Positions 6,468-27,899 of a stretch of 29,723 nt of DNA are shown here, piece by piece. The position numbers and the translations under genes are program-made. Under the pieces are notes generated by a model. It saw only the letters and a program-made list of their open reading frames with translations, did no database searches and had not been told where the DNA came from. The stretch is taken from the IMG/VR virus record IMGVR_UViG_3300046167_000094, positions 1-29,723 of that record, one strand, 5' to 3'. Each line of letters begins with the position of its first letter. Positions within the stretch are counted from its first letter, which is position 1. This DNA is from a virus.

Positions 6468-6704
6468 TTAAAATGGCAAATCGTCGCTTGTTTCGGCGAC
6501 TTGTGCCGTTTCCGGCTTAACGTATGGATCGGATAATTTAATTGAAAAGAACTTGCCTTTTGCGCCGTCCTTAACCCATGCCGCGATTTGTTGGTTCGTG
6601 CCGTCTTGCAACTTGATTGAACCCGAATAATCCGGTTGGTTTTCGCTTGTCTTGTTGGTGTTTTTGAATAAACTACCGTTTCCGTTTTTGTGTTCGTAAC
6701 TCAT
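6468..6704 (-). CDS. SSB-like/DUF736-like single-strand DNA-binding accessory protein
   Basis: 78 residues. The body reads GSLFKNTNKTSENQPDYSGS then QQIAAWVKDGAKGKFFSIKL, a small beta-rich OB-like pattern seen in DUF736-type phage proteins. It ends SDDLPF, an acidic tip like the C-terminal tail of SSB that recruits partner proteins. It lies between the annealing-protein gene (11 bases away) and a strong terminator, in the recombination module. Confidence 0.6.
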   Translation of the reverse strand: MSYEHKNGNGSLFKNTNKTSENQPDYSGSIKLQDGTNQQIAAWVKDGAKGKFFSIKLSDPYVKPETAQVAETSDDLPF

Positions 6705-6715
6705 TGTTTTTGATT

Positions 6716-7201
6716 TTAGATATTAAATTTATTAATTATTTGTTCTCGGTATTCTTTTTTCATTTTAAAGCCGGACAATACCTTTTCCGCTTGTTCTTTT
6801 GTAGCTTTTAACGTTGCGTTTAGTTGCGCTTCTGTTAACCACTTTTTGTTGTCGTTGTCTTGATTTTTAACGGCGTTTTGAACCTCATTAGCTGATGCAA
6901 TAGACGTGTCAATGCCTATGCCTAAATAACCCAATGCGCGGCCCAATGCTGACGTGAAACCGTTTTCAACAAACGATGTTTTATTTATATAGGACGAATC
7001 GCGATATTCCTGCGAATGCGCTGACGCCATTTCAACGCCTTTTGTATCGCAAATTGTGACTTTGAAAATACCTTCCTTTTCGTCAATGTGGACCAACTGT
7101 TCGTTGATTTGCCAACCCTCAAAAGTTGGTTCTGTTCTGAAGTGTTTTAACCTCTCGTTAACTGTAATGTAATTTTTTCCTTTGATGTTTATTGTTTTCA
7201 T
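6716..7201 (-). CDS. Putative single-strand annealing recombinase (ERF/Rad52-like)
   Basis: 161 residues. The signature is SALGRALGYLGIGIDTSIAS (about residues 84-103), resembling the GRALxxLGIG segment of phage annealing proteins, after a beta-rich region with the substrate-like FKVTICDTKGVEMASAHSQE. The C-terminal third is Lys-rich and helical. Standing next to an exonuclease and an SSB-like protein fits an annealing role in phage recombination. Family placement is from memory of the motif and could be wrong in detail. It starts 10 bases after the HTH gene. Confidence 0.5.
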   Translation of the reverse strand: MKTINIKGKNYITVNERLKHFRTEPTFEGWQINEQLVHIDEKEGIFKVTICDTKGVEMASAHSQEYRDSSYINKTSFVENGFTSALGRALGYLGIGIDTSIASANEVQNAVKNQDNDNKKWLTEAQLNATLKATKEQAEKVLSGFKMKKEYREQIINKFNI

Positions 7202-16780: not shown

Positions 16781-17262
16781 TATTTTTTCCAAGTTTTAAC
16801 AATCTTTTCCGCTGAACGTGCGCCGAAATAACCGCCGTAAACTAACAACAACAAAGAACTTAATAAATCAATCCATTGTGGCGCTATATTAAAGCCACCA
16901 ATTGACGAATCTAAAATGATATATATAAACAACGTCAACGTTAAAAAAGCCAATACCATTGGCCGAATGTTTTTTGTCATAAATGAATCCGCCGCATTGT
17001 CTGACGTCCAACGCTTTGTGACTTCTTGCATTTCAATCATATCAAATTCCAATTCCGCCAATAACATTTCTTTATCGGCTTCTGACAATTGCCCATCGGA
17101 TTTAATTTTGTCGCCTAATCTTTTAAGGGGTTCGATTCCCGTAATGTTTCCCGCAATGTCCAACAACTCCGGCGCAATCTTTTTTCCATTAGCCATCAAC
17201 CAACGCAATGCGTCACCAACACGCGTTGTTCCGTTTCTGTCTTTATATGATTTCTTTGCCAT
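16780..17262 (-). CDS. Putative holin (gene-transfer-agent three-TM type)
   Basis: 160 residues from the ATG at 17260-17262 (MAKKSYKDRNGTTRVGDALR); starting 8 codons earlier would overlap the endolysin end. A charged N-terminal half is followed by FMTKNIRPMVLAFLTLTLFI and a second segment WIDLLSSLLLLVYGGYFGA, both membrane-spanning, ending SAEKIVKTWKK. The layout, with the K-N-x-R-P motif before the first TM, matches the three-TM GTA-type holin family. It would permeabilise the inner membrane for the M15 peptidase encoded three bases upstream. Confidence 0.75.
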   Translation of the reverse strand: MAKKSYKDRNGTTRVGDALRWLMANGKKIAPELLDIAGNITGIEPLKRLGDKIKSDGQLSEADKEMLLAELEFDMIEMQEVTKRWTSDNAADSFMTKNIRPMVLAFLTLTLFIYIILDSSIGGFNIAPQWIDLLSSLLLLVYGGYFGARSAEKIVKTWKK

Positions 17263-17264
17263 AA

Positions 17265-17651
17265 TTATTTTTTTGTATAATCCCAACGTGCTGAATAATC
17301 GCGAATGTCAACGTGCGTAAACGTATTATATTTGCCGATTCCGCCAAAACCTAATTGTCCCAATTCAACCATTTCGCAAACTAATTCATGAACTTCATTT
17401 GGCGTCATTCCCTTAATTACAATGTCCGCCGCTTGTCCCTTTTTATGCCTTGAATTTTTAGAACCCTTAACAACATTATCGTTGTAATTGGCGCATCTAT
17501 AACCGGAATTTATTTTGATAGGTTTGCCGACTTTATTGCGTAAAATCTGTAATTGGTCCGCTAATTTTATAAGATTGTTTTTAACGTCGGCGCTAATTTT
17601 ACAATCGCCGCCTTTGCATTCAAATTCGGAAATCGTGAAATTTTTAGTCAT
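17265..17651 (-). CDS. Peptidase M15-type endolysin
   Basis: 128 residues. The pattern is that of phage M15A/D-Ala-D-Ala carboxypeptidase-like endolysins: N-terminal FTISEFECKGGDC, then INSGYRCANYNDNV (about 48-61), SRHKKGQAADIVI (about 67-79) giving the zinc His and Asp, and FTHVDIR (about 112-118) with the second zinc His. It cuts peptide cross-links in peptidoglycan. There is no signal peptide, so release depends on the holin beside it. Its start overlaps the end of the small membrane protein by 8 bases. Confidence 0.85.
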   Translation of the reverse strand: MTKNFTISEFECKGGDCKISADVKNNLIKLADQLQILRNKVGKPIKINSGYRCANYNDNVVKGSKNSRHKKGQAADIVIKGMTPNEVHELVCEMVELGQLGFGGIGKYNTFTHVDIRDYSARWDYTKK

Positions 17652-17799
17652 TGTTTTTATTCTTGTTTAAATAATACCAACGTTGTGCGGTGTACCCTAT
17701 TGAAACGGCCAATAATAATATTTTTAAAACTTCGTCGATTGCAGTAAACGAAACCATAAACGAAAACGTGTTCAGCATATATAGTTTGAAATCATTCAT
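17644..17799 (-). CDS. Small membrane protein of the lysis cluster (51 residues)
   Basis: ATG at 17797-17799, reading MNDFKLYMLNTFSFMVSFTA, then a membrane stretch VLKILLLAVSIGYTA, ending QRWYYLNKNKNND. One or two membrane spans with a basic C-terminus. Its 3' end overlaps the endolysin start by 8 bases, so it is probably co-translated. It may be an accessory holin or a spanin-like factor, unproven. Confidence 0.6.
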   Translation of the reverse strand: MNDFKLYMLNTFSFMVSFTAIDEVLKILLLAVSIGYTAQRWYYLNKNKNND

Positions 17800-17802
17800 A
17801 AT

Positions 17803-18279
17803 TTAAAAACTTAAAACTGTTATAACAAAATCTTCAACAACCGCAGTTGCGCCGCTTTTATCAACTTTAATTTGAATTTTACAACCGCCCGACAATTCGC
17901 TTGTTCGTGTAAATATTTGCGTTGTTCTTGAATAACGGACCAAATCACCATTTGATGCAATGTTGTCGTGTGAAAACTCAATTGTTTTTCCGGTGTCTGG
18001 GAAATATAAACGTGCATCCAAACGTGTATTTGCAGCGCCTGCCGTTACGTCAAAATCATTTCTAATTAACAAAACTTTATTTGCGCCAACTTTTGACGTG
18101 TCAATTTTATTTGCTGATGAATCCCACAAATCGCCGCTTATATAAGACGGCAAATGTGAATGTGTGTTTGTTCCGGCTTTGTCGTTTGTTAAATCCGTCC
18201 ACGCGCCCGCAGTCAAATTTATTGGTGTTCCCGCTTGTTGTTGCGTCTTCATAAAATGCAAACCCGCCCAACGTGTCAT
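17803..18279 (-). CDS. Structural protein, C-terminal frame of a split gene
   Basis: The frame carries the body of a beta-rich virion protein from AGTPINLTAGAWTDLTNDKA to VEDFVITVLSF, including GLYF-like strands LDARLYFPDTGKTIEFSHDN. Its nominal first 12-15 codons (MTRWAGLHFMKT) are the wrong frame of the upstream reading. Joining frame 1 up to YEDATT (18107-18394 entry) with this frame at about 18231-18245 gives a seamless 196-residue protein. I therefore treat both as one gene broken by a +1 shift. The role is probably a tail or head-tail component, from its position. Confidence 0.6.
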   Translation of the reverse strand: MTRWAGLHFMKTQQQAGTPINLTAGAWTDLTNDKAGTNTHSHLPSYISGDLWDSSANKIDTSKVGANKVLLIRNDFDVTAGAANTRLDARLYFPDTGKTIEFSHDNIASNGDLVRYSRTTQIFTRTSELSGGCKIQIKVDKSGATAVVEDFVITVLSF

Positions 18280-20548: not shown

Positions 20549-20912
20549 TTACATTGCTGCAAAGTTATTAAAATATTTTGAATATTTTTCTAAACCAACT
20601 GTAAATGATTGAATTTTGCCGTCGTTTTTAAAAATAAAAAAACCTTTGCGTTCTGCTGAATAGACCGCGAAAAAATCCACGTCCTTTTTTTTGTAACCGT
20701 TTTTTTTATGGTCAACCAAATTGATTCGGTTTCGCGTTCTGTTGTATTCGTTAATACCTTTTATTTGTACTTTAAATAAACCCTTTAGGCGAATCAACAA
20801 TGCAATCATATATTGAAGTATGCAGCAAAGGGAATGAAACCAAAAAACCGTTTTCCATCGCCTTTGTGGCAAATAAATATTCAGCATAACAACCAAAAAT
20901 GTTTGGATTCAT
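20549..20912 (-). pseudogene. Putative PD-(D/E)XK-like nuclease, split by a +1 shift
   Basis: ATG at 20910-20912 opens MNPNIFGCYAEYLFATKAME, then a core YDCIVDSPKG, and stops at TAA 20772-20774. The +1 frame continues without a gap as LFKVQIKGINEYNRTRNRIN, then KKKDVDFFAVYSAERKGFFI, ending FNNFAAM at 20549. The joined 120-residue protein has E in YAEYLF, D in YDCIVD and V-Q-I-K, the E-D-(E/Q)xK pattern of small PD-(D/E)XK nucleases often linked to introns and mobile DNA. Deleting one T from the TTT before the stop restores the frame. It is the last gene of the accessory cassette, with its own promoter and terminator. Confidence 0.6.
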
Positions 20913-20915
20913 AAC

Positions 20916-20924
20916 GTAAAGTTA
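20916..20924 (-). promoter_or_regulatory. Promoter box TAACTTTAC, apparently leaderless
   Basis: Minus strand TAACTTTAC-GTT-ATG. The terminase small subunit has TAACTTTGC-GTT-ATG. The -7 box is three bases from the ATG in both, so the transcript would start at or beside the start codon. Confidence 0.5.
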
Positions 20925-20925
20925 T

Positions 20926-20959
20926 AAAAAAAAGCCGACCAAATTAATGACCGGCTTTT
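20926..20959 (-). terminator. Intrinsic terminator after the cassette membrane protein
   Basis: AAAAGCCG (20930-20937) and CGGCTTTT (20952-20959) pair across a 14-base loop, with a U run on the minus-strand side. Being symmetric, it might work in both directions. Confidence 0.75.
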
Positions 20960-20991
20960 ACTACAAACCAATAAAAACTAAATTATGACAT

Positions 20992-21135
20992 TTAGTTGTC
21001 GTTTGCCAATACAACGCAAATTGATAAAATCAATAAAAATATCGCCGTTGGCAAGTCGTTAAAAAGCATTATTTGTCTAATGGCGAAACCGCCAAATGAT
21101 AATGTTAAAAAAAACTTAATAAATCGCTGCTTCAT
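20992..21135 (-). CDS. Small two-pass membrane protein (47 residues)
   Basis: ATG at 21133-21135: MKQRFIKFFLTLSFGGFAIR, then QIMLFNDLPTAIFLLILSIC and VVLANDN. Two hydrophobic spans with a basic start, so the N-terminus is probably inside the cell. It begins four bases after the zinc-ribbon gene ends. Function unknown; it might alter host membrane properties like other phage accessory proteins. Confidence 0.55.
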   Translation of the reverse strand: MKQRFIKFFLTLSFGGFAIRQIMLFNDLPTAIFLLILSICVVLANDN

Positions 21136-21139
21136 AATG

Positions 21140-21262
21140 TTACATTCGATCAGCTAAATAGCAATTATAAGAACACAATCCCGCGTCCTCAAACATTGGT
21201 ACACCACAAACGGCGCATTCGAATTCCGGTTCATCGCCCGGTATATAATTTAATCCCCACAT
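21140..21262 (-). CDS. Small zinc-ribbon-like protein (40 residues)
   Basis: ATG at 21260-21262: MWGLNYIPGDEPEFECAVCG, then a second Cys pair in GLCSYNCYLADRM. CxxC followed by CxxxC would bind one zinc. Two bases separate it from the DUF3310-like gene. No further family is recognised. Its packing in a run of short genes supports coding. Confidence 0.6.
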   Translation of the reverse strand: MWGLNYIPGDEPEFECAVCGVPMFEDAGLCSYNCYLADRM

Positions 21263-21264
21263 AA

Positions 21265-21483
21265 TTAAAAATTTTTGATGTCTATTTTATTTGTTAAATG
21301 ATATATTTCGCGTTCTAAATAATCCAACGCCTTTTCTAAATCTTGAATTTCATTGTCCTTTCGTCCGGCGCGAACAACGTATTTTAAAACGTTTCCGCGG
21401 TTGAAGTTTAGGTCATAAGACGCAATAACGTCAATTAAGTCGTGTTTAAGACCGTTTTCGTAGTGTTTAGGTGTATTGCTCAT
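21265..21483 (-). CDS. DUF3310-like protein
   Basis: 72 residues from the ATG at 21481-21483 (MSNTPKHYENGLKHDLIDVI), chosen because it overlaps the stop of the previous gene as ATGA. It has the family core: N-terminal PKHY, GNVLKYVVRAGRKDNEIQDL (about residues 30-49), then EKALDYLEREI. DUF3310 is widespread in phages, generally near nucleotide and DNA metabolism genes, with no settled function. Here it sits in the accessory cassette between head genes instead. Confidence 0.8.
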   Translation of the reverse strand: MSNTPKHYENGLKHDLIDVIASYDLNFNRGNVLKYVVRAGRKDNEIQDLEKALDYLEREIYHLTNKIDIKNF

Positions 21484-21626
21484 CTTTTTAAATTTAAAGC
21501 GTTTAAAAGGCTTGAAACCCACGAATCAATTTTGTTTTTGTCGCTATGCTTTCGCATTTCGTTTTGTGTATACACGTTGACGCGGTTGCCGTCGTGTATA
21601 ATAGTTAATCCTGTTTTTGTTTTCAT
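21480..21626 (-). CDS. Small hypothetical protein (48 residues)
   Basis: ATG at 21624-21626: MKTKTGLTIIHDGNRVNVYT, then a basic middle QNEMRKHSDKNK and WVSSLLNALNLKR. Its TGA overlaps the DUF3310-like start as ATGA, which supports both genes and their starts. No family recognised. Confidence 0.6.
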   Translation of the reverse strand: MKTKTGLTIIHDGNRVNVYTQNEMRKHSDKNKIDSWVSSLLNALNLKR

Positions 21627-21648
21627 GATGTTTTTTATTTTATGATTT

Positions 21649-21825
21649 TTAAATTTTAATTAGACCTAAAAACATTTGAAGTTTTAATATTAATCTTTTA
21701 AAAAATGATATTTGGTTTGACATTAAAAATTCGTTTTCTATTTGATTTAAATAATTATATTGTCTTATATAATCATTTTTTTGTTTAGTAAAATCTTCTA
21801 AATTAATTTTATTTATTTCTTTCAT
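21649..21825 (-). CDS. Small hypothetical protein (58 residues)
   Basis: ATG at 21823-21825: MKEINKINLEDFTKQKNDYI, then RQYNYLNQIENEFLMSNQIS, ending RLILKLQMFLGLIKI. A charged helical N-terminal part is followed by a hydrophobic amphipathic C-terminus. The gene is notably AT-rich with almost no CG dinucleotides, unlike the structural genes around it. Function unknown. Confidence 0.5.
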   Translation of the reverse strand: MKEINKINLEDFTKQKNDYIRQYNYLNQIENEFLMSNQISFFKRLILKLQMFLGLIKI

Positions 21826-21839
21826 TGTTCTAAAATTAT

Positions 21840-21857
21840 GGCGCGCCGAAACGCGCC
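21840..21857 (-). terminator. GC-rich hairpin between two cassette genes
   Basis: GGCGCG and CGCGCC pair across a six-base loop. The following minus-strand tail is only AUAAUUUUAG, so termination would be partial. Confidence 0.45.
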
Positions 21858-21866
21858 GGTTGATAA

Positions 21867-22010
21867 TTATTTTAATGTTTCTAAATATTTTAATAATGGC
21901 ATTAAGTCGTCAAAAAATAATGCTTGCGCATAAGAATAATTTTCCAATTCAACGGCGCGGTTCATTTCCTTTTCAACTTGTTTGATTTGCTCTTTAATAA
22001 AATTCTTCAT
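21867..22010 (-). CDS. Small helical protein (47 residues), first gene of the cassette
   Basis: ATG at 22008-22010: MKNFIKEQIKQVEKEMNRAV, then ELENYSYAQALFFDDLMPLL and KYLETLK. It reads as two helices with an acidic middle. A TATCTTTGT promoter box 29 bases upstream and a GC hairpin behind it mark it as the lead gene of the accessory cassette. Function unknown. Confidence 0.55.
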   Translation of the reverse strand: MKNFIKEQIKQVEKEMNRAVELENYSYAQALFFDDLMPLLKYLETLK

Positions 22011-22039
22011 AATGTTTAATTTTATCGGTTTTGTGTGAT

Positions 22040-22048
22040 ACAAAGATA
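22040..22048 (-). promoter_or_regulatory. Promoter -7 box TATCTTTGT for the accessory cassette
   Basis: TATCTTTG plus T on the minus strand, a full match to TAnnTTTG. No TTTG is seen 19 bases upstream; instead an A/T-rich stretch with phased T-tracts lies at 22074-22111. Confidence 0.55.
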
Positions 22049-22073
22049 ATAGTTTATTTTGGTTTTAAAAGAA

Positions 22074-22111
22074 TTTTTTCAGTTTTTTTTAAAGTTTTTT
22101 TTGTTTTTTTT
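22074..22111. repeat. Phased T-tracts (possible DNA bend) upstream of the cassette promoter
   Basis: Four T-runs of 6, 8, 8 and 8 bases begin at 22074, 22083, 22095 and 22104, spaced 9-12 bases, close to one helical turn. Phased A/T tracts often bend DNA. The tract lies between the capsid terminator and the cassette promoter. Confidence 0.4.
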
Positions 22112-22147
22112 GAGTTCTTATCTGTTGGGCGCCTAAAAATAAAGCAT

Positions 22148-22180
22148 AAAAAAAAGGCCTAAAAATTAATTTAGACCTTT
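22148..22180 (-). terminator. Intrinsic terminator after the capsid gene
   Basis: Minus RNA AAAGGUCUAAA pairs with UUUAGGCCUUU over 11 positions with one G-U wobble, followed by a U run. Confidence 0.8.
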
Positions 22181-22203
22181 AATTGTTGGTTAGTTAACCT
22201 TTA

Positions 22204-23390: not shown

Positions 23391-24080
23391 TTATTTTTTT
23401 AAGGAATTTATTAAATAATTGAACACTTCGGAATCATTGTTTTTTACCTCAACATTCGGCGAAGTGATTTCATCAACCGGCTTCGTGAACTCAATAAATA
23501 ATGATTTAAGTTTTTGTATCTCGGCTTCAATGGCAAATCCCATTTCGTCCGATATTTCGCCTTTGCGAATTAATTTTGTTAGGTTGTCGTAACGCTTTGA
23601 AAGTTTTTCAACGTCAACGTTACCCTTTACGTCTAATATTTTGGCTTGGTCATTTGCTGCTAATGTTACGGCGCTTATTTCGTACAGTTTAACTTCTGTT
23701 ATTTCTCTGTAATCGCCTTTATTGTTTTTTTGCATTGGCATAATACCAACTGAATTTTCGGTAATTACACCGGATTTCATTAACTCGACAACGTCTTTTC
23801 CTAATTGTGTTTTAGCAATTTCCGCCACGAATACTAATCCCTTTTCGTCTTCATATAATTCAGTCATTTTGCCGATAGGTTGGTTCATATCGTGCTGATA
23901 TAAATATTTAACACGTTCACCGTTTTCGGCAATAGTCTTTTTGTACGCGCCTTTCATAATCACGTCATTGTCGGAATCTTTATTCCCGAAATAACTGCCG
24001 TAACCTTTTATAATTCCGGCCTTTTCGTCCGCATCAATTAATTCGCCAACCGGCGCCGCTTTGTAAAGAATTGTATTCAT
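23391..24080 (-). CDS. Prohead maturation protease (HK97 gp4/S78-like)
   Basis: 229 residues. Family pattern: IIKGYGSYFGNKDSDNDVIM, VKYLYQHDMNQPIGKM (about residues 57-72) with the active His, KSGVITENSVGIMPMQ (about 102-117) with the nucleophile Ser, and VKLYEISAVTLAANDQA (about 129-145). It cleaves the capsid delta domain and itself during maturation. Gene order portal, MuF, protease, capsid is standard. A TATATTTAC promoter box lies 13 bases upstream. Confidence 0.88.
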   Translation of the reverse strand: MNTILYKAAPVGELIDADEKAGIIKGYGSYFGNKDSDNDVIMKGAYKKTIAENGERVKYLYQHDMNQPIGKMTELYEDEKGLVFVAEIAKTQLGKDVVELMKSGVITENSVGIMPMQKNNKGDYREITEVKLYEISAVTLAANDQAKILDVKGNVDVEKLSKRYDNLTKLIRKGEISDEMGFAIEAEIQKLKSLFIEFTKPVDEITSPNVEVKNNDSEVFNYLINSLKK

Positions 24081-24109: not shown

Positions 24110-24292
24110 TTAAAATTGCGTTGGTTCACCTTCTTCAAACACGATTTTATTTTTTTGTTCGGGTAAAGGTTTGAAATGTTCTATAAAAACACCCATATCA
24201 AAAGGTATTCCATCGGGAAAAGCATTGCAACCACCGGACAAAGGCCTTAAATGTTTGCAGCGATTGCAAATGTAATTTTCTTTTTGATCCAT
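24110..24292 (-). CDS. Small Cys-containing protein between MuF and protease
   Basis: 60 residues: MDQKENYICNRCKHLRPLSG, then GCNAFPDGIPFDMGVF and an acidic tail IVFEEGEPTQF. CxxC plus a later Cys may bind a metal. Similar short proteins, with an AFPDGIP motif, occur next to MuF genes in phages generally, whether or not a toxin domain is present, as far as I recall. That argues for a virion or assembly role. Being directly downstream of a toxin-like domain, it is also the only candidate immunity gene. Confidence 0.6.
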   Translation of the reverse strand: MDQKENYICNRCKHLRPLSGGCNAFPDGIPFDMGVFIEHFKPLPEQKNKIVFEEGEPTQF

Positions 24293-24295
24293 AAT

Positions 24296-25855
24296 TTATT
24301 TTTTATAAAATTCATCTATTAATTCACCAACCAATTTCGCATAATAAGAAGGGTTTGAACTCAATTGATATTCCGTCCAACATTCCGCCATAAATTCATC
24401 TGCGTTTTTTGATGCGTATTTACCCAAAAATATTTCATTGAAACCTTTAAAGTTGTTTGTTTCTCTATATTTTAATAAATTTTTAGTGTATTCACGTTTA
24501 ATTTTTGTAATGTTTCGCCAAAATTCTATTTCTGAATTTAAACCGGAACGTGTTAAAACGTGTCCCATCTCATGTACTAATGTTGATAAAAAGTTTTTAT
24601 CTGCATCAATTGCGCTTTTAAATCTTAAATTATCAAATCTATCACTAAATAATCCCCTTGTTCTATTAGCTAATTTATCGGTTTCATCACCTAAATTTAA
24701 TTCCCATAATTCAGATTTTGTTCTTCCGCGTTTTATATAACCAAAACTTCTTCGGGTTGATTTGTTTTTTATAATAATATTCCTAATAAAATTTGCTTCT
24801 CTATCAAAATTATATAAATTAAAAAGACGTTCTAATTCTGCTAATCGTAAATTGTATTGTTCAACTGTTAATGAACGCGACATTGTTAATTTATCAACCT
24901 TAAATTTATTATTTGTGAACAATTCAGACAATTGGCGCCTTGCTTCTGCTATTGTTTTAGCTACATTTTCAACACCCGAAACAATTGTTGTTCCAATAGC
25001 GCTCGCAAAGTCGCCTAATCCAAACCCGGTTGTTGAGCCGCCGCCTAATCCAAAGTTTATATTAGTAATATCACCAACAGTTTGTGCGCCCTCTATTGGA
25101 AAATATGCAACAGAACAACGGCAATTGATACATTCCGCAGCACCGCCCGCGGGATCGCCCGGAAACATCATTGGTTGACCGCCAACTAAAAAAGTATTGT
25201 TAGCCATTACAATTTGACCGTCGGCCTCTGAATGTGTGTCGCGCGTCCTATCGTCAAAACTTGCAATCCATTCTTTTTGCATTTGTTCCGACGGGAAAAT
25301 AGTTTGTGCGGCTTGTGTTTGTGCAAAGTTAGCCGCCGCCGTCGCTTCAGTACGAACAACACGTTCGGCTTGCCATTGTGAATACTTATTGAATTGGTTT
25401 CGTAATATACGCCCACGTTCAACCGCGCCCAATGTCATAAACTCGGGATTGCGCATCAACCTTTGTGTTATTTCAATTAAAGTTTTGCGAGCCGTTCCGC
25501 TTACCAATGTTACACGTTCCGCGCCCATTGCTGAACCAAACGCACCAAACGCATTTCGCCAAATGTCATCAATGTCGGTAGTGTCAACGGCTTTTTTTAT
25601 AAATCTATTTATATTGTTGGCGTACCATTTAGCAAACCGCATTCCAATATCTGTATATAAATCACGATAAATTTTTAATAAATCTTTCTCGTTAAATAAT
25701 AGTTGGAAATTGGTTTGACCGTCTGCAATAAACGATTCAATGCCTTTGTTGTATTCACGTTTATAAAAACGCTTTACAATGGCGATTTGTTTTTTTTCAG
25801 CGATGTCTAATTGCTTTTCAAACGCCGATTGCCATTTGTCTTTGTCTATTGCCAA
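24296..25855 (-). CDS. MuF head morphogenesis protein with C-terminal zincin-like domain
   Basis: 519 residues, starting at a TTG (MAIDKDKWQSAFEKQ); no ATG lies between it and the in-frame stop four codons upstream. Residues 1-255 are a MuF/SPP1 gp7-type head protein: RVVRTEATAAANFAQ (165-179), FDDRTRDTHSEADGQIV (200-216) and AECINCRCSVAYF (240-252). A Gly-rich linker follows, then a C-terminal region with LVHEMGH (426-432), an HExxH zinc motif, and NADEFMAECWTEY (484-496), which may give the third ligand. MuF fusions with variable C-terminal domains are known polymorphic toxins of phages, carried in the virion. The 24.4-24.9 kb part is poorer in CG dinucleotides than the MuF part, suggesting a swapped-in domain. 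Confidence 0.8.
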   Translation of the reverse strand: MAIDKDKWQSAFEKQLDIAEKKQIAIVKRFYKREYNKGIESFIADGQTNFQLLFNEKDLLKIYRDLYTDIGMRFAKWYANNINRFIKKAVDTTDIDDIWRNAFGAFGSAMGAERVTLVSGTARKTLIEITQRLMRNPEFMTLGAVERGRILRNQFNKYSQWQAERVVRTEATAAANFAQTQAAQTIFPSEQMQKEWIASFDDRTRDTHSEADGQIVMANNTFLVGGQPMMFPGDPAGGAAECINCRCSVAYFPIEGAQTVGDITNINFGLGGGSTTGFGLGDFASAIGTTIVSGVENVAKTIAEARRQLSELFTNNKFKVDKLTMSRSLTVEQYNLRLAELERLFNLYNFDREANFIRNIIIKNKSTRRSFGYIKRGRTKSELWELNLGDETDKLANRTRGLFSDRFDNLRFKSAIDADKNFLSTLVHEMGHVLTRSGLNSEIEFWRNITKIKREYTKNLLKYRETNNFKGFNEIFLGKYASKNADEFMAECWTEYQLSSNPSYYAKLVGELIDEFYKK

Positions 25856-25856
25856 A

Positions 25857-27899
25857 CTAATCGTTTATTTGGTTCAGTTTTTTATTTACCCAATCACGCA
25901 TTGCAGTTCCACCCCAAAGATTCCACGAAACAAAACCATTGTCGCGCCATGGTGTGTCTTTATAACGGTCCGCAATTGTTTGATTGCCTTCGTGTCTTGC
26001 AAAAAATGATTTAATGCGGTTAAGCATTTCAACTGTTAATGGTTCGCGGTTTGCTAACATTGACGCACGACGCCAACCCGTAGGCGTTCCCGCGCGCACC
26101 TCATCACCGTATTTTTCGCGCCATTCAATCATTCGTTTAGCGTTATTTGTTGCGGTCTGCGGGTATGTTGTAAACGTTTCGTTTTTTTCTGTTGGTTTGT
26201 CTTTGCTGCTCATTGGGTGACCTTCGGGCAATAAATCGGTGTCGTGTTTGCCACCTCTAAATTTACCGTTCTTTAACGCATATAAGAATGAATTAACGCG
26301 AGCCATTGCCCATTGTTGCGGTGATGATACTGAAGGCCGTACACTTGACGGGTTTGTTCTATATGCACCAATGCCACGTTCGTAAACCTCAAACAATATT
26401 GAAACAGTTGTTCGTTTGTCTTTGTCGTCGCCAACTTCGTCGTTGTGTTCGTCGATTTTATTTTGCAACGCTAATTTAAGGCGTTCCGAAATCTCTTTTT
26501 TTTTTAGGGTTTCGTCTTTGTTTAAAAACTTATTGACGTCAACGTCTATACTTTCAACGGGCATTTCAACGTCATTAGATTGCACCGGAATAAGATTCGC
26601 CGGAATATAATAATCATCCAATTGTGACGTTTCCTCATCTTTTCCGTAATTCATAGCCGCACGCTTTTCGTTTGGTGTGATCCACCACGCCTTTGACAAT
26701 TGGTCCACGACTTTGTCGGTTTCTTCTTGTAACTCTGGAATAACTGAAAAATCAAATTCAATACAAAGTTTGTCACCGTATTTTGGCGCTAACCAACGAT
26801 TTAATTCGTCTTTAATCTTTAACAGTTCGGGAATAACCGCGTTTTGATATAACGCCTTTTTTGCTTCCTTCATATTGTTATATGACGACGATTCGGTGTT
26901 GTTTAGTAGTTGAACCGGTACGTTGTAGATATTACATAAATCTTTTATACTCGCGTTGTATTGCTCAATCAATGAAACGTCCGCAGCATTCAATCCAAAG
27001 TTAACCCACGACAATTTTTTCGGTGTTATAATAACATCACCCGCATTGTCTGAACCTTGAAATTGTTTTCGGAATTTGTCTTTTAATTGTTGCGCTTGTA
27101 CTTCGTTAATGTCGCCCTCATCACTCATTAATAAACCACGCGCCGTTTGATTTTGTAGATACTTAACACCCGTTTGAACCGCTTCATTGTTTGTTGTTAA
27201 TGAACGTAACCCCGCACGCAATGGCGATTGTCCATATAAATGTGAACCTGTTCCATCATAATAAGGGTTAAAATCTTTAATGTGGCATATTTCTTCAGCA
27301 GGTATTTCAAACGTTCCGTTGTATTCTATTTTGTATTTTGATACGGGTTTCATTATACCGCCGGAAACGATTTCCATAATCTGCGACGGCATCACATAAA
27401 GTTCAGTATATTTTCCAACATTGGCGCCGGTATCGGGTCCTATTCCGTAGATATAACGGTTTCCCGTTAATTTACCGAATGCGATTAATTCAGTTATCCA
27501 ACTATTGTATGATTGCGCCGGATTTGGACGTTCCAATAATTTATGCAATTCGGTGTCTTGTAACTCAACCAACGAACGTTTTTGTAACATTGCCGCCTTG
27601 TGTATTGTCGCAGCGTCAAACGTTCCGGACGTCATGGCCTTATATCTTTTATAATCGTTTTCGTTTGTCTTTTCGTAAACTTGAAACGGAATTGTTGTCG
27701 CCGCTTTTGTAATTAAATTAACCAACGCGTAAATCGTTGAATTTTTTCTGTACCCTTCTGTAATATAGGAATCGTCATTTTCCGGATTCCAAACGATTGA
27801 TTCGCCCAACCAATTATAAATTGCGTTGTTGTATTGTTGTGCGGTTTGTTGTGCGTTTTTTGAAATTATAGACTTAAAGCGGTCGAGTAATGATGCCAT
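25857..27899 (-). CDS. Portal protein with two-module C-terminal extension
   Basis: 680 residues; the portal family normally ends around 400-450. Residues 1-440 are the portal: YRKNSTIYALVNLITKAATT (50-69), FGKLTGNRYIYGIGPDTG (141-158), GQSPLRAGLRSLTTNNEA (223-240), the LNNTESSSYNNMKEA membrane-like stem segment (332-346) and VDQLSKAWWITPNEKRAAMN (398-417). An acidic linker leads into module A (about 500-562, GIGAYRTNPSSVRPSVSS then GKFRGGKHDTDLLPEGHP) and module B (about 586-677, KRMIEWREKYGDEVRAGTPT then RYKDTPWRDNGFVSWNLWGG). It is the DNA entry channel. The MuF TTG start lies two bases after its stop. Confidence 0.88.
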   Translation of the reverse strand: MASLLDRFKSIISKNAQQTAQQYNNAIYNWLGESIVWNPENDDSYITEGYRKNSTIYALVNLITKAATTIPFQVYEKTNENDYKRYKAMTSGTFDAATIHKAAMLQKRSLVELQDTELHKLLERPNPAQSYNSWITELIAFGKLTGNRYIYGIGPDTGANVGKYTELYVMPSQIMEIVSGGIMKPVSKYKIEYNGTFEIPAEEICHIKDFNPYYDGTGSHLYGQSPLRAGLRSLTTNNEAVQTGVKYLQNQTARGLLMSDEGDINEVQAQQLKDKFRKQFQGSDNAGDVIITPKKLSWVNFGLNAADVSLIEQYNASIKDLCNIYNVPVQLLNNTESSSYNNMKEAKKALYQNAVIPELLKIKDELNRWLAPKYGDKLCIEFDFSVIPELQEETDKVVDQLSKAWWITPNEKRAAMNYGKDEETSQLDDYYIPANLIPVQSNDVEMPVESIDVDVNKFLNKDETLKKKEISERLKLALQNKIDEHNDEVGDDKDKRTTVSILFEVYERGIGAYRTNPSSVRPSVSSPQQWAMARVNSFLYALKNGKFRGGKHDTDLLPEGHPMSSKDKPTEKNETFTTYPQTATNNAKRMIEWREKYGDEVRAGTPTGWRRASMLANREPLTVEMLNRIKSFFARHEGNQTIADRYKDTPWRDNGFVSWNLWGGTAMRDWVNKKLNQIND

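Follow-up and report, generated by a model that had tools for sequence, protein, structure and literature searches.

Toxins built on the MuF head protein form a described class of polymorphic toxins. Jamet et al. (2017; PMC5576092) listed 191 MuF toxins, 20% of which are metallopeptidases, and found a small open reading frame (ORF) downstream of 89.4% of MuF toxins, compared with 25.5% of the short forms. These toxins were tied to temperate phages and prophages, mostly of Firmicutes; virulent phages had none, and the Bacteroidota are not mentioned in the text. The same paper reports the detection of a MuF toxin by proteomics in the StB12 phage. For two other MuF toxins, Bxa and Apk2, adjacent small neutralising proteins have been tested (Alexei et al. 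2024; PMC11699363). In this work we focused on a MuF gene in a 29,723-nucleotide stretch of viral DNA, the IMG/VR virus record IMGVR_UViG_3300046167_000094 (positions 1 to 29,723; hereafter the window). The gene (24296-25855) has a TTG start, encodes 519 amino acids (aa) and, like all window features given below, lies on the minus strand. The C-terminal part of its product is a predicted zincin metallopeptidase, and the next gene encodes a 60-aa mini-protein with a Cys3-His pattern. We propose that the MuF gene probably encodes a polymorphic effector with cognate immunity, carried by a virulent tailed phage.

The zincin-like C-terminal domain

An earlier note on this DNA, made from the sequence alone, had described a MuF protein, a Gly-rich linker and a zincin-like C-terminal domain with HEMGH and DEFMAE motifs, and our analyses bear out this architecture. 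Pfam recognised Phage_Mu_F (PF04233) at residues 154-249 (25109-25396; E = 3e-11), the protein matched the PHROG head morphogenesis family (E = 3e-35), and the gene lies between those for the portal and the prohead protease. The Gly-rich linker (24929-25069), delimited by the alignment of 43 loci and by blastn boundaries, precedes the zincin domain (residues 310-519; 24299-24928), which we call type A. In an alignment of 23 diverged homologues T, HExxH, Y, EFxAE and P-S were invariant. AlphaFold2 modelled residues 310-519 as a zincin with a predicted local distance difference test score (pLDDT) of 94.6 and a predicted template modelling score (pTM) of 0.92, with both HExxH and EFxAE in helices. 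Because of this invariance and of the confident model, the motifs exceed what chance would give. HEMGH (residues 428-432; 24560-24574) is predicted to supply two zinc ligands and the catalytic Glu, and by analogy with gluzincins the third ligand would be Glu487 or Glu491 of DEFMAE (residues 486-491; 24383-24400). A Foldseek search against viral models (BFVD) returned three close relatives with template modelling (TM) scores of 0.85-0.94, two of them named head-morphogenesis proteins. In Pfam, Peptidase_Mx (PF15887) reached 17.9-20 bits and thus stayed below its gathering cut-off of 27. Together, the model and the alignment support the prediction that the MuF C-terminus is a zincin metallopeptidase.

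The base composition of this domain differs from that of the rest of the gene, with 27% guanine plus cytosine (GC) against 41% in the MuF part, and only 1.1% of 630-base-pair windows match its low GC. The paucity of CG dinucleotides in the domain had previously been taken to fit domain exchange. Such dinucleotides are indeed fewer, as expected from the base composition, but the observed/expected CpG ratio is not lower (1.74, versus 1.64 in the MuF part). CpG depletion was therefore discarded as evidence for exchange, and the low GC was retained.

Exchange and pairing of the zincin domain and its neighbour gene

A scan of IMG/VR using the MuF half as query yielded 43 loci. Where the MuF part is 75-100% identical to that of the window, the protein ends after 273-279 aa or else bears a zincin of type A, B, C or D; a type B zincin, for example, sits on a MuF part 99% identical to that of the window (L003). 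The same two states, short and long, recur in a remoter MuF clade (L041-L044, 47-48% identical). The MuF tree, with 39 rows, comprises 27 short and 12 long forms, the latter with zincins of types A, B, C and D, so that the domain is not universal among MuF relatives and the polymorphic exchange put forward in the earlier note is supported. The two outcomes that the note had named as counter-evidence, a fold without a zinc site and a domain present throughout the MuF relatives with a structural role, did not materialise, as the model is a zincin and most relatives lack the domain. Seven changes between short and long are placed on the tree, of which well-supported branches require at least five; when every type is counted, the total is nine. 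One further locus (L019, 2000-5307), in which MuF is joined to a RuvC-like domain, was set aside as a probable chimeric contig, because its downstream primase-like genes are unlike those of this phage group.

The exchange involves more than the MuF C-terminus. Long forms are always followed by an extra ORF of 57-64 aa starting a few bases from the MuF stop, whereas completely sequenced short forms have the protease gene 21-43 bases downstream and never the extra ORF. The presence of the small gene with all 12 long forms and with none of the 27 short ones corresponds to a Fisher p of 2.6e-10, kinship being ignored. In the window this ORF is the gene of the mini-protein (24110-24292), which accompanies zincins of types A-C and is a candidate cognate immunity protein. 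A blastn comparison with L005, L006 and L007 bounded the insert, zincin domain plus mini-protein gene, at 24118-25041 (about 924 base pairs), with 95.6-97.4% identity on both sides. The conserved flanks are the gene of the portal protein (25857-27899; PF04860, PF19141) and that of an S78 prohead serine protease (23391-24080; PF04586), which directly follows MuF in short forms. These alignments and the tree indicate that the zincin domain and the small gene move as one cassette, and that this cassette has been acquired, lost or replaced on at least five occasions. The Gly-rich linker is common to nearly all long forms of the lineage regardless of the C-terminal domain and is replaced in the short forms; it is likely to serve as recombination anchor.

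Two isolates show the same exchange. The lytic Flavobacterium phages lotta8-1 and pippi8-1 share the host LMO8 and belong to a genus without lysogeny genes (PMC7077304). Their genomes are 99.3-99.96% identical over 33.16 of 34.75 kilobases, and only three segments are unmatched (lotta8-1 6623-7010, 16949-17850 and 30654-30953). The second of these coincides precisely with the MuF C-terminus and the gene after it: lotta8-1 carries a zincin of the window type with the Cys protein, and pippi8-1 a sequence-unrelated zincin (HEIGH) with an unrelated acidic protein of 70 aa. No relatives of the pippi8-1 zincin were found in IMG/VR. It partially matches proteins of Streptococcus prophages (MK448969, 16410-16700) and of a Planktothrix phage (HQ683709, 56176-56718), which hints at a broad common pool of such domains. 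The other two differences concern the structural protein gp046, possibly a receptor-binding tip, and small early genes (L165, 30654-30953 and 6623-7010).

This replaceability bears on the idea that the domain serves in virion maturation or self-processing and cuts head proteins or the MuF half to which it is joined. For zincins in phage polyvalent proteins, processing of their own polypeptides has been proposed (PMC5512222). Here the prohead serine protease is a distinct protein with its gene in the immediate neighbourhood, the zincin domain is missing in 27 of 39 close relatives, and sequence-unrelated zincins replace it on heads that are 97-99% identical, which makes such a role very unlikely.

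The pairing was examined in both directions. A zincin profile scan gave 80 loci, in which 78 ORFs were examined for a downstream partner. The Cys3-His mini-protein followed the type A-C zincin ORF in 73 of the 78 by pattern and in three more by eye; of the two left, one lies on a contig that ends too early and the other was not inspected. Conversely, a generic alignment of the mini-protein used as query found 68 loci, 67 of them with an upstream ORF. HExxH was present in all 67 upstream ORFs, compared with 0.55% of their shuffled versions; 63 belong to this zincin family and four are divergent. The type D zincin, barely related by sequence, is accompanied in 19 loci by a different, acidic partner of 62-72 aa and never by the Cys protein. 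Two loci distant on the MuF tree (L035 and L042) have the same zincin and the same partner, and thus partner identity tracks the zincin rather than the phage backbone.

Neither Pfam nor NCBIfam names a family for the mini-protein. Its Cys3-His pattern suggests that it binds zinc, and one may speculate that it plugs the active site of the zincin. The co-exchanged gene (24110-24292) went unmentioned in the earlier note; as a cognate small gene it adds a second hallmark of a polymorphic toxin.

The zincin is also found on other carriers. Pfam recognises MuF in 23 of 31 diverse proteins examined. In L085 the zincin is borne by a portal-like protein, and in L096, L098 and L104 by short ORFs after the portal gene. 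In Actinocorallia, the same zincin (profile probability 98%) forms the C-terminus of a 677-aa bacterial protein that has an unrelated N-terminus and no Pfam match, and the same Cys protein is encoded directly downstream. The domain is thus shared with other delivery systems in one bacterial case (Actinocorallia) and one portal-fused phage case (L085).

Phage lifestyle and candidate function

Genes for replication, packaging, tail and lysis are present in the window. No lysogeny family was matched among the 20 proteins scanned or the head genes, and neither Phage_integrase (PF00589) nor Resolvase (PF00239) was found in the window and 21 related records (28-36 kilobases, some maybe incomplete), the controls being positive. 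With a comparable query, the zincin family gave two distant matches in 84,980 bacterial and archaeal genomes versus at least 108 in viral contigs. This marine phage appears to be virulent, with no detectable lysogeny genes, and the usual association of MuF toxins with temperate phages does not extend to it. The window helicase resembles chiefly those of Flavobacterium and Cellulophaga phages, so a host among the Flavobacteriia is likely. Two further observations concern the neighbourhood of the MuF gene: the C-terminal extension of the portal protein (25857-27899) matches DUF5824 (E = 1e-6), and a region between head genes (20900-22200), where GC is as low as 24%, has few convincing ORFs.

The effector reading is built on the fold, the motifs, the exchange, the pairing and the absence of detectable lysogeny genes, and it presumes protease activity, injection, inhibition and a target. 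The MuF half would place the protein in the head near the portal, where the C-terminal zincin would ride as cargo and, by analogy, enter the host together with the DNA; it is from the MuF domain that we infer ejection with the virion. The injected zincin would then cleave a cytoplasmic target early in infection, most probably a protein involved in host defence or regulation. The Cys3-His protein, whose gene belongs to the same late operon, would be the cognate inhibitor and, until packaging, would keep fresh effector from harming the cell that makes it. As domain and inhibitor travel as one cassette between conserved flanks, the activity could be changed quickly.

Several points weigh against this reading. 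Activity, toxicity, neutralisation and virion presence of the zincin family are all inferred. In the Foldseek search against the PDB, zincins (Wss1, an MtfA-like hydrolase, meprin and hatching enzymes) rank first but weakly, with E = 0.04-0.9 and TM scores of 0.21-0.38 for the top matches and none at or below 1e-3. The forward (zincin) and reverse (Cys protein) sets of loci overlap and contain near-duplicates. The Cys protein is not confined to zincin loci, since it also occurs in L162, in L243 and on some actinobacterial contigs. In L162 (2611-4427) a MuF protein ending in an ADP-ribosyltransferase precedes the Cys3-His gene, after which comes another small ORF (about 95 aa); this is possibly a two-immunity locus, or the antidote was left over after a toxin swap. 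On the actinobacterial contig L243 (1404-3271) the Cys3-His gene comes after an ORF that itself follows a T4-like portal gene and has a JAMM-like motif (THNHPVDISFSRGD) at its end; zinc peptidases of more than one fold may therefore have the mini-protein as their partner. A few actinobacterial contigs carry the Cys protein without a partner of any of these kinds. Lastly, when zincin and mini-protein were modelled as one joined chain, the in-frame stop being read through, the pTM was 0.76 and no confident contact was seen.

The lack of a modelled contact would also fit a small protein that is an effector-specific chaperone or loading factor, aiding folding or zinc loading rather than inhibiting, with the zincin still an injected effector; strict pairing, with unrelated small proteins for each zincin, is what dedicated chaperones would show too. 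Characterised MuF toxins nevertheless have neutralising neighbour proteins (PMC11699363), and in some genomes the Cys protein is found with no toxin, much as orphan immunity genes are. We regard a chaperone as rather improbable.

The effector might alternatively be a superinfection weapon: the injected protease would mainly harm a rival phage already replicating in the cell, while the small protein made by a resident phage would shield it from particles of the same type as itself. On this view the polymorphism would amount to kin discrimination among virulent phages, in the style of polymorphic toxins, pitting virus against virus rather than bacterium against bacterium. A toxin with cognate antidote in phages without lysogeny genes, a phage-borne immunity protein that shields the cell only while that phage is expressed, and near-identical phages of one host that differ in the cassette all suit this idea. 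The late-operon position fits self-protection in assembly equally well, however, and many relatives thrive without the cassette; a weapon against rivals is thus unlikely.

Action on the cell wall or capsid, also raised in the earlier note, became less likely, the domain being dispensable and accompanied by a cognate partner gene. As a cell-wall or periplasmic hydrolase the zincin would aid DNA entry, and some phage-borne metallopeptidases are known in general to act on peptidoglycan (survey in PMC5512222). Against this, endolysin and holin are encoded elsewhere, head cargo would meet the cytoplasm, and the cognate partner is without an obvious signal peptide. We consider this role extremely unlikely and retain the effector with cognate immunity.

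Lysogeny or rivalry among lysogens has been the explanation given for MuF toxins. Because the phages of this group appear unable to lysogenise, neither would account for their cassettes. Putative MuF toxins with cognate partner genes in such phages point to a role inside the lytic cycle, and a class of phage weapon credited to dormant phages would occur in purely lytic ones too. With lotta8-1 and pippi8-1, near-isogenic phages of a single environmental Flavobacterium host, the question can be tested directly.

Comparison with known systems

MuF metallopeptidase toxins, small ORFs downstream of them, delivered zincins, and MuF toxins with tested immunity for other enzymes were already known. 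Provisionally, and within the open-licence literature, three elements appear to be new: the toxin-immunity arrangement in virulent phages, the two specific families of zincin partners, and the pair of isolates. Metallopeptidase-like MuF proteins had been thought less documented in a Bacteroidota phage; metallopeptidases already make up one-fifth of the toxins of Jamet et al., but that text is silent on the Bacteroidota.

At the level of the domain, the Pfam models Peptidase_Mx and Mx1 (PF15887, PF15890), M90 and the phage 'Lethal factor' (M34-named) have in common with our zincin the HExxH core and a Glu-bearing downstream helix; it differs from them in that every match lies under the curated cut-offs, and the structural 'Lethal factor' matches are weak. 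The MPTase of polyvalent proteins (Iyer et al. 2017; PMC5512222) and Tox-MPTase1-5 (Zhang et al. 2012; PMC3482391) are likewise zincin-like peptidases on delivered proteins, with MuF as a virion domain, a likeness that holds at the level of the published descriptions. In the part of Zhang et al. consulted, no immunity family is given for Tox-MPTase1-5, and the present work defines two candidate immunity families for zincin effectors.

Bxa and Apk2 also combine a MuF N-terminus, a C-terminal enzyme and an adjacent small protein, and Bxa comes from a Bacteroidota prophage; their enzymes are an ADP-ribosyltransferase or a (p)ppApp synthetase and are prophage-encoded, whereas here a zinc peptidase is predicted. 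Like the toxins of Jamet et al., the protein described here has an N-terminal MuF in the head module, a variable C-terminal domain on a conserved N-terminus and, downstream, a small ORF specific to the putative toxin domain. Unlike them, it occurs in phages without lysogeny genes, its zincin is almost absent from bacterial genomes, and each zincin type has a defined partner family.
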